A stretch of DNA of 20,777 nucleotides from a virus, in IMG/VR virus record IMGVR_UViG_3300050021_000810, positions 1-20,777 of that record; one strand, 5' to 3'. The translations under genes were made by a program, and so were the position numbers. The notes under the pieces were generated by a model. The model had not been told where the DNA came from. It searched no databases and saw nothing but the letters and a program-made list of their open reading frames with translations. Shown here in pieces: positions 15,345 through 20,505 of this stretch. How positions within the stretch are numbered: position 1 is the stretch's first letter; each line of letters starts with the position of its first letter.

Positions 15345-16457
15345 TCACTCGAACGGAATGTCGTCGTCTGGCGGCCCGGTAGCGGCTTCAGGGGGAACGG
15401 CTTGCGGGTTGATGCGCGACGCCAGCGTCTTCCAGGCGTCGGCGCCGACTCGCGAAGCAGGCGCAGTCGGTTCTGTTGGAGGCGGCGGCGCAGTGCCCAA
15501 GTCCGGTGGGAACAACGTCGCTCGCCAGCTGACCTGGCAGCGATGTTCGTCCGACCACGCCCAGTAGCCTTTCTTGCCGGCGCGCTGGTCGCTTGCTTCC
15601 CAGCGGTCGCCGGCTGGCGTGCCCTTGCGCACCGGCACAAGCGGCGCTTTCAGGCCCGCCTTTTCGGCCTTCGCCTGCCGCACTTCGGCCAGCCGATCGA
15701 AATCGCGATCAGCAATCCAGCGCCAAGCTTCCTTCGGGAAGGTCTTTTTCGCCGCCTTGATCTCGGCCGCGTAATGCGCCGCTTCGCGGATCGCGACGTC
15801 GCGATCGCCGAGATTGAGCCGGCCGAGTTCCTGCTCGCCGCGCGCCAGGTCCATCGCCGCGACGCCGGGATAGTTGGCGGCGAAGCGCTTCCAGTCTTCC
15901 TTGAGCCTTTTCTGAAATTCGATAATCTTCTCTCTCTCGCCTTCGCGAGCGCTCGCGCTCGCGTTTAAGAGAGATTCTTTAAGATTCGTATATAATGGTG
16001 TGGTGTCGCATTTGGCGGGACCTGATGCGCTGTTTGGCGGGACCTGATGCGCTGTTTGGCGGGACCTAGGTCCCGCCAATTTGGCGGGACCTGCCTCGTC
16101 GCCCTCCGCGATATTCTGATCGTCAGAAACTTCGCCATCACTTGTAGGCATAGAGGCGCGCTCTGCCGCGGTCGGTTCGTCGAGCTGGCAATCGAGCCGC
16201 AGTCGGATGATCACCCGCCGGCCGCCCGATCCATCATGGGCGTCGGCGCGCTCGATCGCGCCCGCGCCTTCGAGATTGGCGAGCAGCCGCGACACAGTGC
16301 GCTGCGATTGGCGCGTCACTTCCGCCAGCCGCGGAATCGATAGGTCGACCACTGTGCCGAGATCCGAGGCGTTGAGCCCCAGCTCGACCAGCAGCAGTTG
16401 TGCGCCCGGCCCGCTCGGCCGCTGTGCGCGCGCCCATTTCAGTCCGTCCGCGCTCAT
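15345..16457 (-). CDS. Winged-helix replication initiator-like protein carrying an internal origin
   Basis: 370 residues. Residues about 15-88 have a winged-helix fold: LLLVELGLNASDLGTVVDLS, IPRLAEVTRQSQRTVSRLLA, NLEGAGAIERADA, then a basic wing GGRRVIIRLRLDC. Residues about 100-175 are low in complexity and coincide with the DNA iterons. Residues about 175-290 are charged and helical (IIEFQKRLKEDWKRFAANYP). The C-terminal third is Pro/Ala-rich and ends DDDIPFE. The layout resembles lambda gpO: N-terminal DNA-binding domain, origin DNA under the linker, C-terminal partner domain. The final acidic DDDIPF motif resembles the SSB-type C-terminus and could bind replication proteins. The start ATG overlaps the upstream stop as ATGA. 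Initiator function is inferred. Confidence 0.83.
   Translation of the reverse strand: MSADGLKWARAQRPSGPGAQLLLVELGLNASDLGTVVDLSIPRLAEVTRQSQRTVSRLLANLEGAGAIERADAHDGSGGRRVIIRLRLDCQLDEPTAAERASMPTSDGEVSDDQNIAEGDEAGPAKLAGPRSRQTAHQVPPNSASGPAKCDTTPLYTNLKESLLNASASAREGEREKIIEFQKRLKEDWKRFAANYPGVAAMDLARGEQELGRLNLGDRDVAIREAAHYAAEIKAAKKTFPKEAWRWIADRDFDRLAEVRQAKAEKAGLKAPLVPVRKGTPAGDRWEASDQRAGKKGYWAWSDEHRCQVSWRATLFPPDLGTAPPPPTEPTAPASRVGADAWKTLASRINPQAVPPEAATGPPDDDIPFE
15944..16092. other. Candidate phage replication origin inside the initiator-like gene
   Basis: Reading along the gene (minus strand) the order is: five iterons (16092-16011), an AT-rich stretch (16000-15962; 27 of 39 bases A/T in a high-GC genome), and a perfect 14-bp palindrome CGCGAGCGCTCGCG (15957-15944). 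Lambda ori, inside gene O, has the same order: iterons, AT-rich DNA, palindrome. The AT-rich part has two GATTC sites (15973 and 15983) 10 bp apart, and two TTTAAGA copies. Replication activity is inferred. Confidence 0.72.
16011..16092. repeat. Iteron array: five TTTGGCGGGACCT copies
   Basis: Direct copies lie at 16011-16023, 16033-16045 and 16055-16067, the first two followed by identical GATGCGCTG spacers (exact 22-bp period). An inverted copy (16068-16080; one mismatch at its outer base) abuts copy three to form a perfect 24-bp palindrome centred on CCTAGG. A further direct copy is at 16080-16092. The 22-bp period is not a multiple of three, so the encoded peptides differ (GPRSRQTAHQ, VPPNSAS, GPAKC). 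The repeats are thus kept at the DNA level. Confidence 0.93.
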
Positions 16458-16735
16458 GGGGTGCGACCCGATTTTCCGACGAGAAGGTGGATCGGCCGCG
16501 CTCGTTCCTCACCCGGCGAAACGATTAGGGCGCCGTCGCTCGCCAGCCTCAGAATGCAGCCGTCGATCGCGTCGCGCGTCATGCATTTCGCTGCCCCGAC
16601 ATCGTCGAGCGCTGCGGCGCCGCGCGCCACCAAGCCAGTCGCGTCGGCGCAGCTCGCCAGCAGCGCGAGTGTTAGCCGACGCTTGACGCTCGAGGTCGGC
16701 CATTCGAACGCCCACGCGACAGCTTCGATGTTCAT
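16454..16735 (-). CDS. Small winged-helix protein, replication-region helper
   Basis: 93 residues from ATG 16735 (MNIEAVAWAFEWPTSSVKRR). The sequence resembles the N-terminal helix-turn-helix of phage replication proteins: AVAWAFEWPTSSVKRRLTLA, LLASCADATGLVA, then TRDAIDGCILRLASDGALIV as recognition helix and wing. GAGGGG lies 6 nt before this ATG. A TTG-initiated form from 16753 overlaps it and is not preferred. It overlaps both neighbours by ATGA, which ties it to the GcrA-like and initiator-like genes. It may bind the iterons or assist the initiator; this is inferred. Confidence 0.8.
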   Translation of the reverse strand: MNIEAVAWAFEWPTSSVKRRLTLALLASCADATGLVARGAAALDDVGAAKCMTRDAIDGCILRLASDGALIVSPGEERARPIHLLVGKSGRTP

Positions 16736-16989
16736 CTTGATCCCCTCGCCCAACGCCCATGCTCGGCGCAGTAAGGCTCGCCCGCCACACGCGTCGCGCA
16801 GCAGAAGCGAAAGCCCTCGGCCCTAGGGTGGCCGAGCGGCCAGCGGCACGAGCCGAACTTCAGCGCCATCACCGCTGTGATCGCTGGCGACGGCCGAGCT
16901 TCGCCCGCTGCGGCGCGCCGCCGGCAGGATCCCGGCGCCGCAACAAACGCGAACGGCAGGCCTTCGATCCTGCGGGCGAGAAAGCTCAT
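16732..16989 (-). CDS. Short GcrA-like protein (C-terminal zinc-finger-type half only)
   Basis: 85 residues. Residues about 44-80 carry the GcrA C-terminal signature: GSCRWPLGHP, GFRFCCATRVAGEPYCAEHG, with the C-x-W-P-x-G, F-x-F-C and P-Y-C-x-x-H elements. GcrA is an alphaproteobacterial cofactor of sigma-70 RNA polymerase that acts at promoters with methylated GANTC sites; in full-length GcrA the N-terminal helix-turn-helix reads DNA and another part contacts sigma. Here the N-terminal 43 residues are basic, Ala/Arg/Pro-rich and show no such helix-turn-helix. It overlaps both neighbours by ATGA. It may be a reduced form or a decoy for host partners. The family call rests on the signature alone. 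Confidence 0.75.
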   Translation of the reverse strand: MSFLARRIEGLPFAFVAAPGSCRRRAAAGEARPSPAITAVMALKFGSCRWPLGHPRAEGFRFCCATRVAGEPYCAEHGRWARGSR

Positions 16990-17429
16990 TGCGCCGCCCT
17001 CGCTTCGTCCGGCAATTCGCGGCCGATCGCCAGTGCGACCGCGCGCGCCTCAACCATCAGACTGGCGTCGAGCGCCGCACGCGTTTCGAAGATGCGCAGC
17101 TGGTAGGCGACCGTCGCCGCGTCGCGCTTCAGCCGTTCGCCGAGCGCGATCTTGCTCAGTCCGGAGAGTCGCGCTGCGACCCAGCAGGCGAGAAAGCGCG
17201 GATGGGCGAGCGCCGAGCGCCCGACGTGGCCGATCATCTCCGCTTCGGTCAGTGAATACCGGCGCGCCACCTCGCGCACCACGTTGTCGGCGATGGCGCC
17301 AGCTTCGGTGTGGCGCGTGCTGGTCGTCTCGCGCAGCGCCGCGCGCCAGCCAGCCGCCTTGCCAGCCTGAAACCCCTGATCGTAGATCTGCGCCTCGCGA
17401 ATCTGCGCCGCGCTCAACGTCACGCCCAT
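16986..17429 (-). CDS. Stand-alone DnaA domain IV-like DNA-binding protein
   Basis: 147 residues from ATG 17429. Residues about 46-118 follow the DnaA C-terminal domain pattern: IADNVVREVARRYSLTEAEM, IGHVGRSALAHPRFLACWVA, ARLSGLSKIALGERL, then RDAATVAYQLRIFE, which parallels the R-D-H-T-T-V-x-x-A signature helix of DnaA. The AAA+ part of DnaA is absent, and the signature His is Ala here, so box specificity may differ. Residues 1-30 (AQIYDQGFQAGKAAGWRAAL) form a short helix. GAGGGGG lies 5 nt before the start; the longer frame to 17498 lacks such a site. A separate AAA+ gene lies two genes upstream. Confidence 0.83.
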   Translation of the reverse strand: MGVTLSAAQIREAQIYDQGFQAGKAAGWRAALRETTSTRHTEAGAIADNVVREVARRYSLTEAEMIGHVGRSALAHPRFLACWVAARLSGLSKIALGERLKRDAATVAYQLRIFETRAALDASLMVEARAVALAIGRELPDEARAAQ

Positions 17430-17446
17430 ACGATCCCCCTCGACAA

Positions 17447-18595
17447 TCACTCCGGCGGCGTCGCCGCATCTGTCGCTTCGTTCCCCCACGCCGCCCAATT
17501 CTTGCGCGGCGGCCCGCGCCGATTCAGTTCGATTTTGGGAAGGTTCGGGAAGTAGTGTTCAATCATCTCGCAGAATAGATCAGGCTTAGCCGAGTGTTCG
17601 GCGCGCGGAGCAAGCTGCAGCGAGTCCAGCTGCGTCCCCATCGCCGGCGCTGGAATCGCGCCGCGCGTCCCGACCAGCAGCAGCTCGTGCTTGTTGCGGA
17701 ACCAATACCCATTGCCGATGCGATCCTTGGCCCAGACCACATGCGATTTGTAAGTGAATCCCCACGCCGCCATCACCACGAGCGCGTGCGGCAACATCGG
17801 CGCGGTCGCCCACAGAAACAGGACGCAATCGTCGGCGGCGATCGACGCGACGTCGCGCGCCGCGATTACTTCGAGCGCGCTAGTCGGGTAGTGATTGTCG
17901 GCGGCGCGATCGAGACCAGTGTCGCGCGACCACGGATCGAAACGCCATTCCGGATCGGCGAGGATGACGCCGAATTTCGCCTCGGGGAGCGCACACTGCC
18001 GGGCGCCGAGATCCGCCTCACGTTCGTCGCGCGTGGCACGCTTGATGATCGTCTGGGCCGCCCGCCCTTCGCCCGCGCTGGCGCGCGCCGCGATCTCGCG
18101 CTGAATTTCCGGCGTCAGCGCGCTCGCCTTGGCCGCAGCGCTGACGGCGAGCGCACCTTGGTCGACGGCCGTTTTGAGTTCGGGCGCCGCGTCCGAACTG
18201 ACCTTGGCGGCGTCGCAGACGCTGCGCTCGCTGACATGCAACGCTGCGGCCGCTTCACCGCGCGAAACACGCAAATTTGCGTCTTTTCCTGGCCGCCCCG
18301 GCCGCATCGTCTCCAGCCGCGCCGCCACCATGGCGCGCTGGCTTTCGTTCAAATGCCGCCGCGCCAGGTTGAGACTGAGGACGTAAGCGAGGGGGTCGTC
18401 GCCCAAATAGCTGCGAAAGCGCGCCGTTACGCCGGCGATCTCACAAGCGCGGAAGCGGTTGCGGCCGTCGAGGATTGCACCGTCGAGCAGCACAATCGTT
18501 TCGCGCAGCCCGTGCGCCTTGATGTCGTCGACGAGCGCCGCCAGGTCGTCACCTTCCATCATCGGAAAGAGATTGGCGAGCGGATGGATGTTCAT
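17447..18595 (-). CDS. ParB-like domain fused to MT-A70-type adenine methyltransferase
   Basis: 382 residues from ATG 18595, overlapping the AAA+ stop as ATGA. Residues 1-100 are ParB/Srx-like: DDLAALVDDIKAHGLRETIV, LLDGAILDGRNRFRACEIAG (GRNR at 44-47), LAYVLSLNLARRHLNESQRA. Residues 108-135 form a helix-turn-helix (SRGEAAAALHVSERSVCDAA). Residues about 205-375 are MT-A70-like: FGVILADPEWRFDPWS with DPEW at 214-217 in place of the usual DPPW, DNHYPTSALEVIA, CVLFLWATAPMLPHAL, and GNGYWFRNKHELLLVGTRG (294-312). Predicted N6-adenine methylation of phage or host DNA. The DPEW variant could alter catalysis. The target sequence cannot be read from this. Confidence 0.88.
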   Translation of the reverse strand: MNIHPLANLFPMMEGDDLAALVDDIKAHGLRETIVLLDGAILDGRNRFRACEIAGVTARFRSYLGDDPLAYVLSLNLARRHLNESQRAMVAARLETMRPGRPGKDANLRVSRGEAAAALHVSERSVCDAAKVSSDAAPELKTAVDQGALAVSAAAKASALTPEIQREIAARASAGEGRAAQTIIKRATRDEREADLGARQCALPEAKFGVILADPEWRFDPWSRDTGLDRAADNHYPTSALEVIAARDVASIAADDCVLFLWATAPMLPHALVVMAAWGFTYKSHVVWAKDRIGNGYWFRNKHELLLVGTRGAIPAPAMGTQLDSLQLAPRAEHSAKPDLFCEMIEHYFPNLPKIELNRRGPPRKNWAAWGNEATDAATPPE

Positions 18596-19578
18596 GGCGC
18601 TGGGCGCCGAAACGGAACGACGCCGGCGCATGAGATGGTCGGCGCGGCGGCGGCCTCGGCCACCTCGCCGTCACGCGTCAGCGGCCAAGGCAACGCTGTA
18701 ATCGCCGGATCGGCGACCCCGAGGCTCCATAGCCGCGGCTTGCCGAGATCGGGATGGGGATGGATCGCGCTAAGCACGCGGCCGAACACCGCGCGTTTGT
18801 CCATGTCGGCCCCAAGCTTCGGGCCGACGATCAGCGCGCGTTTGATGTTCTCGGCCAGCGCCCGCATCAGCGCCGGCGACGCTGTTTCGCAGGATTCGGC
18901 GAGGACGTGGAGCGCCGCTTTCGGCAGAACGAAGGGGGCAAAATAGCGCGCGAGAATGCGCTCGCGTTCGCCCTGCCCCGGCAGTTCGAGCGTGATGTGC
19001 ATGTCGAAGCGCCGCCAGATCGCCTGATCGATCGATTCGGCGTAGTTGGTCGCAGCGACGAGATAGCCGCGATGCTGTTCGATCCGCTGCAGCATGGTGT
19101 CGACGATGGCGTTTTTCTCATCGTCGCTCCCCTGTTCGGAGCGCCGCCGTTGCCGCGACACAGCATCGAATTCGTCGAAAAACAGCAGCACCGGCTCGGT
19201 CTTCTCGCCGCCATCGGCGAGTTCCGCCGCCGTCGGTTCGGCCGCGAGCGTGAACAGTTCGCCGATCTGCTCCGAGGTCTGGCCGCACCATTTCGAGATC
19301 AGACGGTCAGGCCGCACCGCCAGCATGCGCAGGCCCAACCGCGCTGCAAGGTGATGGGCGAGCGTCGTCTTGCCGGTTCCCGGAGCGCCGGTGAACATCG
19401 CCCGCTTGCGTGGGCTGACGCCGGCGGCGATGAGTTCATCCTCCGCCCAGATCTCTGTCAGCCATTCGGTCAGCGCCTGGCGCACGCCGCGAGCCAAGAT
19501 CGGCTCAGCCGCCTCGGATGGTTCGAACAGTTCGCCGAAGTCTTCGAGCTTCGACGCGCTCCTCGGCATGCGCATCAT
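18592..19578 (-). CDS. AAA+ ATPase (classic FtsH/proteasome-type family)
   Basis: 328 residues. Walker A GAPGTGKT at 64-71, Walker B LLFFDE at 131-136, sensor 1 ATN at 176-178, and an arginine-finger-like pair at 189-190 (IWRRFD) are all present. The type is the classic AAA clade (FtsH, SpoVK, Cdc48-like) rather than DnaC or DnaA. The helical lid follows (ERERILARYFAPFVLPKAAL). The C-terminal about 60 residues are Pro/Ala-rich. It sits between the GapR-like and ParB-methyltransferase genes with ATGA overlaps on both sides. It could remodel the initiator or load a helicase, or act on host proteins; the sequence does not decide. The start could be ATG 19578 or 19575. Confidence 0.87.
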   Translation of the reverse strand: MMRMPRSASKLEDFGELFEPSEAAEPILARGVRQALTEWLTEIWAEDELIAAGVSPRKRAMFTGAPGTGKTTLAHHLAARLGLRMLAVRPDRLISKWCGQTSEQIGELFTLAAEPTAAELADGGEKTEPVLLFFDEFDAVSRQRRRSEQGSDDEKNAIVDTMLQRIEQHRGYLVAATNYAESIDQAIWRRFDMHITLELPGQGERERILARYFAPFVLPKAALHVLAESCETASPALMRALAENIKRALIVGPKLGADMDKRAVFGRVLSAIHPHPDLGKPRLWSLGVADPAITALPWPLTRDGEVAEAAAAPTISCAGVVPFRRPAP

Positions 19579-20234
19579 TCGTCATCCGGCCCCATGCCAT
19601 CGCCGCCGCTCTCAAGCCGCCAGCCCTTGTCCCAGCGCGCGCGGCGGCCGTCGCCGAACGGGAACGGATTGGCGATGATCGCCTGATTGGCCTTGAACGC
19701 TTCGCGCCCCAAGGCTTCGGCGCCGTCGGCGTCAACCGCCGGTGGTTCGGGCCGCGCGGGCGGAGCGCCCTTGGCCGCGCTGGCGGGCGCCGCGGGCTTC
19801 GTCGGCTCGACCTCATGCGCCGTGACGTCGCCGCTTTCATCACGGATCAGCCGCACCGGCTTGCCGCCGGCCTCGACGACGATCGCGCCGTTGGCGGGAA
19901 CGAACTTCTTCAGCGCCTCGATCACTTCGTCGCGCTGCGCGACGTCGACGCTCATCATCCCGACCTGGCGGAACAACGGCGTCTCGCTCGCCATGCCGAG
20001 CGCCGCCATGTAGGTGTCGGCGATCGCCTCCGCCTCGGCGAGATCCTGCGGTTTCTTGGCGCGGCGCGAGACGATGTATTTCAGCACCGCCGGCACAAAG
20101 CCGCCGGCCTTGGCCTCGGCCATGATTGCCGCTTCATCGTCGCTAAGCGCCTTCTTTTCGGCCCGGATGCGTTCGATGCGTTCGACGTAGCCTGCGAGAA
20201 TCTTTCCGCTCGGCGTGTTCCTGCCCATCATCAT
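19575..20234 (-). CDS. GapR-like (DUF2312) protein with C-terminal RMF/CrpP-like motif
   Basis: 219 residues from the first of three ATG codons at 20234; GGAGG lies 6 nt upstream. Residues about 7-80 match GapR/DUF2312: SGKILAGYVERIERIRAEKK, ALSDDEAAIMAEAKAGGFVP, then VLKYIVSRRAKKPQDLAEAE and a DTYMAALGM helix. GapR is an alphaproteobacterial nucleoid protein that binds overtwisted AT-rich DNA and aids replication. Residues 104-142 are predicted beta. After a Pro/Ala linker (144-168), residues 172-214 match the RMF/CrpP-type motif: EAFKANQAIIANPFPFGDGR, then RARWDKGWRLESG. That family includes ribosome modulation factor. A longer frame to 20438 lacks a ribosome site. Confidence 0.87.
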   Translation of the reverse strand: MMMGRNTPSGKILAGYVERIERIRAEKKALSDDEAAIMAEAKAGGFVPAVLKYIVSRRAKKPQDLAEAEAIADTYMAALGMASETPLFRQVGMMSVDVAQRDEVIEALKKFVPANGAIVVEAGGKPVRLIRDESGDVTAHEVEPTKPAAPASAAKGAPPARPEPPAVDADGAEALGREAFKANQAIIANPFPFGDGRRARWDKGWRLESGGDGMGPDDE

Positions 20235-20271
20235 CGGTTTCCTCCAATCGCGCGCGACGCGCCTGTCGCCC

Positions 20272-20505
20272 TTAGTAGATGAACCGCGGAGCGCCCCGCG
20301 GCGCGACGGGGACGCCCTTCGGATAGACGCGCACGAGGTCGTCGAGATGAGCGTCGCAGGCAACAACCTCGCGCTCACGTCGAGACTGAACCGCAGCCGA
20401 GACGACTTCCGGAGCGTCGTCGCCATCGCCATCTTCAAATTCCGCCCGCATTGCCGCTAATGCGGCGGCTTTCGGCAATGGAAACGCGTGCGCCAGATTC
20501 CCCAT
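20272..20505 (-). CDS. Small hypothetical phage protein
   Basis: 77 residues from ATG 20505 (MGNLAHAFPLPKAAALAAMR). GAGGGGGAG lies about 5 nt before the ATG, a strong site that decides against the longer frame to 20625. The middle is acidic (EFEDGDGDDAPEVV), and the end is basic and Pro-rich (RVYPKGVPVAPRGAPRFIY). No family is recognised. It lies between another small protein and the GapR-like gene with the same orientation and short gaps, so it is probably part of the early operon. Confidence 0.7.
   Translation of the reverse strand: MGNLAHAFPLPKAAALAAMRAEFEDGDGDDAPEVVSAAVQSRREREVVACDAHLDDLVRVYPKGVPVAPRGAPRFIY

Follow-up and report, generated by a model that had tools for sequence, protein, structure and literature searches.

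The segment at 15929-16092 of the window (the whole analysed stretch of viral DNA, a linear record of 20,777 bases that may be a fragment) is very probably a phage replication origin located inside the gene of its own initiator; we give this reading a probability of about 0.88. Five iterons, repeated as DNA and not as peptide, lie beside an AT-rich tract within a gene homologous to replication initiators, and the arrangement is conserved in relatives. The best reading of the sequence is a lambda-like origin within an O-like initiator gene of non-lambda type, which would be an arrangement of an already known kind. In such an origin, the winged-helix domain of the initiator (residues 1-90) would bind the five iterons, and the three in-phase direct iterons beside the AT-rich tract, about two helical turns apart, would align the initiator molecules. 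The aligned initiators would open the tract at 15962-16006, and the helical and C-terminal part of the protein would then recruit the replicative helicase, directly or via a loader. Comparison with relatives argues for the iteron binding, composition is consistent with the opening, and family annotation alone suggests the helicase recruitment. We infer that the segment would be used as an origin in vivo.

Iterons and adjacent elements in the initiator-like gene

The earlier note described five 13-bp iterons (three direct with an exact 22-bp period, one inverted to give a 24-bp palindrome, and one more direct), and their positions and spacings bear this out (Table 1). Four copies of TTTGGCGGGACCT are exact and lie on the plus strand; the inverted copy matches at 12 of 12 bases, differs at the 13th, and forms with the neighbouring direct copy the perfect 24-bp palindrome TTGGCGGGACCTAGGTCCCGCCAA (16056-16079). 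Successive direct copies are spaced by 22, 22, and then 25 bp, all five iterons fall within 82 bp (16011-16092), and two of the 22-bp units are identical across their full 22 bp. No further copy of TTTGGCGGGACCT with zero or one mismatch occurs in the whole 20,777-base record. Matches with up to three mismatches are not rare in themselves; what is rare is the presence of five near-exact copies within 82 bp.

Table 1. Features of the putative origin, the gene that contains it, and neighbouring genes
Feature	Position	Strand	Basis
NusG/RfaH-like antiterminator, immediately downstream of the O-like gene here and in L020 and L061	14553-15302	-	phrog_6386
O-like replication initiator gene, 370 aa	15345-16457	-	ORF, PHROG profiles, AlphaFold2, Foldseek
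(GA)n tract in the coding strand; related genes are enriched in GAGAGA here	15929-15938	-	Sequence and family enrichment
14-bp palindrome CGCGAGCGCTCGCG, beyond the AT-rich tract in the coding sense	15944-15957		Sequence
AT-rich tract, presumed DNA-unwinding element, with two GAATCT repeats (GANTC at 15973 and 15983)	15962-16006		Composition
Iteron, direct, nearest the AT-rich tract	16011-16023	+	Exact copy
Iteron, direct, 22 bp from its neighbours	16033-16045	+	Exact copy
Iteron, direct	16055-16067	+	Exact copy
Iteron, inverted; with 16056-16067 forms the 24-bp palindrome	16068-16079	-	12/12
Iteron, first in coding order, TTTGGCGGGACCT	16080-16092	+	Exact copy
Winged-helix coding region, residues 1-90, presumed iteron-binding domain	16188-16457	-	AlphaFold2 model
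99-aa protein, adjacent to the O-like gene on its upstream side, with weak similarity to N-terminal domains of replication initiators	16454-16753	-	phrog_6643, E 0.077
170-aa protein with DnaA domain IV (Bac_DnaA_C)	16986-17498	-	1.1e-8
ParB-like N-terminal part (phrog_4715) joined to MT-A70 adenine methyltransferase domain	17447-18631	-	MT-A70, 9.1e-20
AAA ATPase resembling the NCBIfam model for anti-phage ATPase IteA	18592-19578	-	1.2e-41, 143 bits, far under the cut-off of 510
GapR-like DNA-binding domain in a 287-aa frame with a long N-terminal extension	19575-20438	-	9.5e-20

That the repeats reflect the peptide, or are a functionless product of chance or slippage, is extremely improbable, even though two units identical over 22 bp are what a recent tandem duplication would be expected to leave. 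The 22-bp period shifts the codon frame, one copy is inverted, the five iterons are read in all three frames, and homologues have other iterons at the corresponding position. When synonymous codons were shuffled inside the gene, with the protein and codon counts kept, no 12-mer exceeded two copies in 3000 trials (versus five observed), which rules out a repeat at the peptide level and marks the repeats as a feature of DNA, as had been claimed. The initiator gene therefore holds at least three iterons beyond what its peptide explains, as is characteristic of an internal origin.

Directly beside the iterons, as also characterizes internal origins, is an AT-rich candidate unwinding tract. It begins 4 bp from the end of the cluster on the coding-strand 3' side, and no other 45-bp stretch of the record is as AT-rich. 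The AT stretch described earlier is thus present, although its quoted 69 per cent AT is not reached: the peak measured over 45 bp is 67 per cent, against a record mean of 34 per cent. The 14-bp palindrome reported next to the stretch is found as described.

The predicted initiator and its neighbours

PHROG replication-initiator profiles recognize the 370-aa protein (phrog_270 at 2.5e-7 over residues 8-268, phrog_391 at 6.8e-5, phrog_1032 at 1.3e-4, and phrog_678 at 1.8e-4), in agreement with the earlier description of an initiator-like winged-helix gene. The profile match extends across the DNA-binding and helical domains, which assigns the protein to the O-like initiators as PHROG classes them. 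The Pfam matches are sub-threshold winged-helix hits only (MarR_2 at 1.6e-4, below the cut-off), and PF04492 (Phage_rep_O), the family of lambda O, gives no match at E<=0.1, whereas lambda O as a positive control matches it at 5.7e-36. An hhalign comparison of the family N-terminal profile with lambda O returned a probability of 0.2 percent. The protein would therefore work like lambda O while standing outside that Pfam family. Of the proposal that it is independent of lambda or very diverged, the second part agrees with these results; the first is too strong, because phrog_391 and phrog_678, both O-like profiles, match the window protein and lambda O alike. The phage and plasmid collections yielded no full-length homologue.

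An AlphaFold2 model of modest confidence (mean pLDDT 59), built from seven sequences, predicts a winged helix in residues 1-90 (helix-helix-strand-helix-helix-strand-strand, with pLDDT of about 73-88 in residues 1-70), a disordered linker in residues 96-170 (pLDDT below 50), a helical domain in residues 171-266, and a C-terminal tail. The iteron cluster corresponds to residues 121-149 and falls within the predicted linker. By prediction, then, the gene has an N-terminal DNA-binding domain with iterons in a flexible linker, the layout of an internal origin. The best Foldseek matches in the PDB are winged helices, including MarR proteins, the N-terminal domain of DnaD (2v79), and a Rep-DNA complex (5kbj), none with an E-value below 0.01.

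Given this resemblance to MarR-type regulators, for which palindromic operator sites are typical, the repeats might be operators that the winged-helix protein uses to repress its own operon or set its timing, with the origin located elsewhere. We consider this very unlikely, as the sites lie approximately 365-447 nt inside the coding region and not at a promoter, the AT-rich tract is on one fixed side of the repeats in relatives, and lambda O and SPP1 gp38 show repeats internal to initiator genes to be origins (PMC7466680, PMC6316719). The protein possibly regulates in addition to initiating. Because the record is a linear 20.8-kb virus fragment, another origin could sit outside it. GC skew, which had been suggested as a check, is uninformative and does not mark the origin: it changes sign near 12-14 kb, in the direction opposite to the usual leading-strand excess, and the genes identified there lie on one strand.

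Several genes close to the O-like gene encode proteins with DNA-binding domains (Table 1). The 99-aa protein has 36 per cent identity to L061:2015-2185, a locus in which it is syntenic; we rejected it as a truncated copy of the O winged helix, as blastp finds no similarity to the O protein. The protein with DnaA domain IV, a counterpart of which also precedes the O gene in L020 (2.1e-10), is possibly an accessory factor, and the long N-terminal extension of the GapR-like frame may reflect a wrong start. No helicase-loader (P-like) gene was recognized among nine proteins scanned with Pfam and PHROG in this incomplete record. One of these neighbours (the DnaA domain IV protein at 16986-17498, the GapR-like protein, or the ParB-like/MT-A70 protein) might bind the repeats and leave the O-like protein only to load the helicase. 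Such a division of labour is highly improbable: there is no match to a DnaA box near the repeats, and named phage homologues with internal repeats have no neighbour annotated as DnaA-like in the stretches examined. In addition, there is a weak positive correlation between iteron similarity and identity in the recognition-helix region of the O protein (Mantel rho 0.14, p 0.02), driven by five matched pairs (L035/L055 with CCGTGTCTCAAA, L041/L046, L044/L045, L048/L051, and L024/L027 with ACCGGACA).

Internal repeats in related genes

The closest orthologues, in loci L020 and L061, carry internal repeats at the same place in the gene as the window. Those of L020 are four GAGTCCGGC-type palindromic units (22-mers) spaced by 23-24 bp, and those of L061 are GGTAGTCTCAAATCTGGACTACC units followed by the AT-rich tract TTATGTTCTAATAGTTATATAAATAA. 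Gene order is also shared: L061 has GapR-like, 99-aa-like, O, and NusG-like genes and then terminase genes, and L020 has DnaA_C, O, and NusG-like genes. L020 comes from a Rhizobiales metagenome-assembled genome (MAG) that also contains a terminase fragment of 74 per cent identity (L011), and Rhizobiales bacteria are the probable hosts of the phage. In the homologue of Bradyrhizobium phage ppBeUSDA76-1, GACCCTCGCAA-type sites cluster at the same place, imperfect and below our automatic threshold. Internal repeats are likewise found in named homologues annotated as replication proteins, SfV orf39 and gp22 of Pseudomonas phage phi2, the latter followed by a P-like loader gene. Scans for close relatives in viral and genome contigs, with the window protein or a nine-sequence N-terminal alignment as the query, gave nothing usable.

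Clusters, defined as at least three copies of one 9-mer within 160 bp, are present in 18 of 35 genes (the window, L002, and 33 genome-search loci, a few of them redundant) versus 3 of 70 flanks of equal length. Adding named phages, viral contigs, and a further 60 phrog_270 loci from among the matches listed brought the set to 107 phrog_270-type genes. Homologues lacking internal repeats had been named as evidence that would count against the origin; the closest homologues described above carry them, as do 58 of the 107 genes, that is, not all. The other 49 have no exact repeat of three or more copies by a scan that misses degenerate sites, and some phrog_270 matches are proteins with a seemingly different N-terminal domain. 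In Rhizobiales genomes, viral contigs, and named phages, homologues often have a cluster at the position seen in the window, unlike it in sequence but with the same 22-23 bp spacing and an AT-rich tract downstream.

In a curated set of 26 genes chosen for having a cluster (25 relatives, window included, and lambda O as a control), the iteron centre falls at residue 127 +- 14, and of 54 intervals between same-orientation copies, 41 measure 20-25 bp (33 of them 22 or 23 bp). An inverted-direct-direct-direct order recurs in the window, L027, L035, L040, L048, L051, and L055. The downstream 60 bp are AT-richer than the gene in 24 of these 26 preselected genes (p 2e-7) and AT-richer than the upstream 60 bp (p 6e-4). 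Third codon positions of the downstream tract are also AT-rich (0.57 versus 0.25 elsewhere; p 5e-10) in 51 genes of the extended set, which were preselected for a cluster and analysed with no correction for phylogeny. These were drawn from 56 nonredundant genes by leaving out lambda and, for a cluster or composition judged unsuitable after inspection, L074, L084, L129, and L131. The conserved position and AT side are less well accounted for by operators or by sites of another protein than by an origin.

Several motifs are enriched in the downstream tracts relative to synonymous resampling (GAGAGA, 37 seen versus 1.4 expected; GAACC, 42 versus 18.6; CCCCCC, 25 versus 5), an exploratory result, because the motifs were spotted by eye before being tested on an overlapping set. 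GAACC-like motifs are spaced by 11-14 bp in 26 of 38 intervals. A contribution of the peptide to GAACC is likely, because most copies (31 of 44) are in frame; the GAACC repeats of Bcep176 switch frame. GANTC occurs 12 times in the unwinding tracts of the 26 genes versus about 4 expected, an excess confounded by AT content. A tentative and rather doubtful generalization would be that one internal-origin grammar is common to this winged-helix initiator family across Proteobacteria: 22-23 bp iterons (often inverted-direct-direct-direct) come first, followed by an unwinding tract made of GAACC-type repeats of 12-13 bp, then a C-tract and a (GA)n/GC box. On this view, iteron sequences would change together with the recognition helix and the unwinding elements would not; the invariant element would serve as a second recognition site, not dependent on the iterons, for single-stranded DNA or a partner from host or phage.

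These observations point to a probable origin and initiator for an otherwise uncharacterized phage group, and internal repeat clusters would allow origins to be located easily in prophages that lack annotation. Because many homologues each have an individual iteron at a fixed position, they provide natural helix-site pairs, with which the initiator-iteron recognition code and the role of the shared unwinding element are directly testable. Titles and abstracts from part of the literature on internal or iteron origins and alphaproteobacterial prophages contain no account of internal origins in this initiator family.

Phages and a Methylocystis contig that share the window's terminase are without its O gene, which suggests that replication modules have been swapped. 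Several have other repeat clusters, apparently largely intergenic, at the corresponding place upstream of the terminase genes (L009:2592-2872, L012:7471-7641, L013:7594-7715, L015:3138-3331, L017:7682-7883, and L019:4231-4485), with the repeat sequences AAACCCTCC, AAACCCTGCA, AACCCTCCCA, AAGGTATGGC, and ATCCTCCCGT. The exact 24-bp palindrome was not found in viral contigs. A paired-iteron search of viral contigs returned one contig, which we rejected, as its repeats encode a proline-threonine peptide repeat and it has no initiator homologue. The viral contig L008:1-1365 encodes a long protein repeat of low complexity (APTL/PPTTV), which in DNA searches looks like an iteron array.

Comparison with known internal origins

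The window would widen the range of self-contained, lambda-type origins to an initiator outside the lambda O family. In lambda, iterons and an AT-rich tract lie in the middle of gene O (PMC7466680), whose product has an N-terminal DNA-binding region and a flexible linker (PMC6022878). The order within gene O claimed for the window in the earlier note is indeed that of lambda: the same scripts place the lambda iterons at residues 116-141 (121-149 in the window), with an AT-rich tract after them in both. Shared features are mid-gene iterons with 20-24 bp spacing, an AT-rich tract directly downstream, and an N-terminal DNA-binding domain, linker, and C-terminal domain. The iteron sequences differ, lambda has four sites and the window five with one inverted, and, unlike lambda O, the window protein does not match PF04492 and has no recognized P-like loader in its record.

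The annotated replication protein of Shigella phage SfV (orf39) has the same succession of winged helix, linker, and helical domain, a phrog_270 match, and internal repeats in its gene. Its phrog_270 match is far stronger (1.7e-88 versus the weak 2.5e-7 of the window), its iterons are different, and the window protein has an extra C-terminal part. The hypothetical protein WAX24339.1 of ppBeUSDA76-1 has 35 per cent identity to the window protein over residues 8-129 and clustered GACCCTCGCAA-type sites at the same place; its iterons are its own, of mixed orientation and imperfect, with no clear AT-rich tract downstream.

SPP1 differs in being a Bacillus phage that has a further origin (oriR) as well as a helicase and loader of its own. 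Its oriL lies within gene 38 and comprises direct repeats, bound by the initiator, and an AT-rich DUE (PMC6316719). The likeness to the window is one of arrangement: direct repeats and an AT-rich DUE inside the gene of the initiator.
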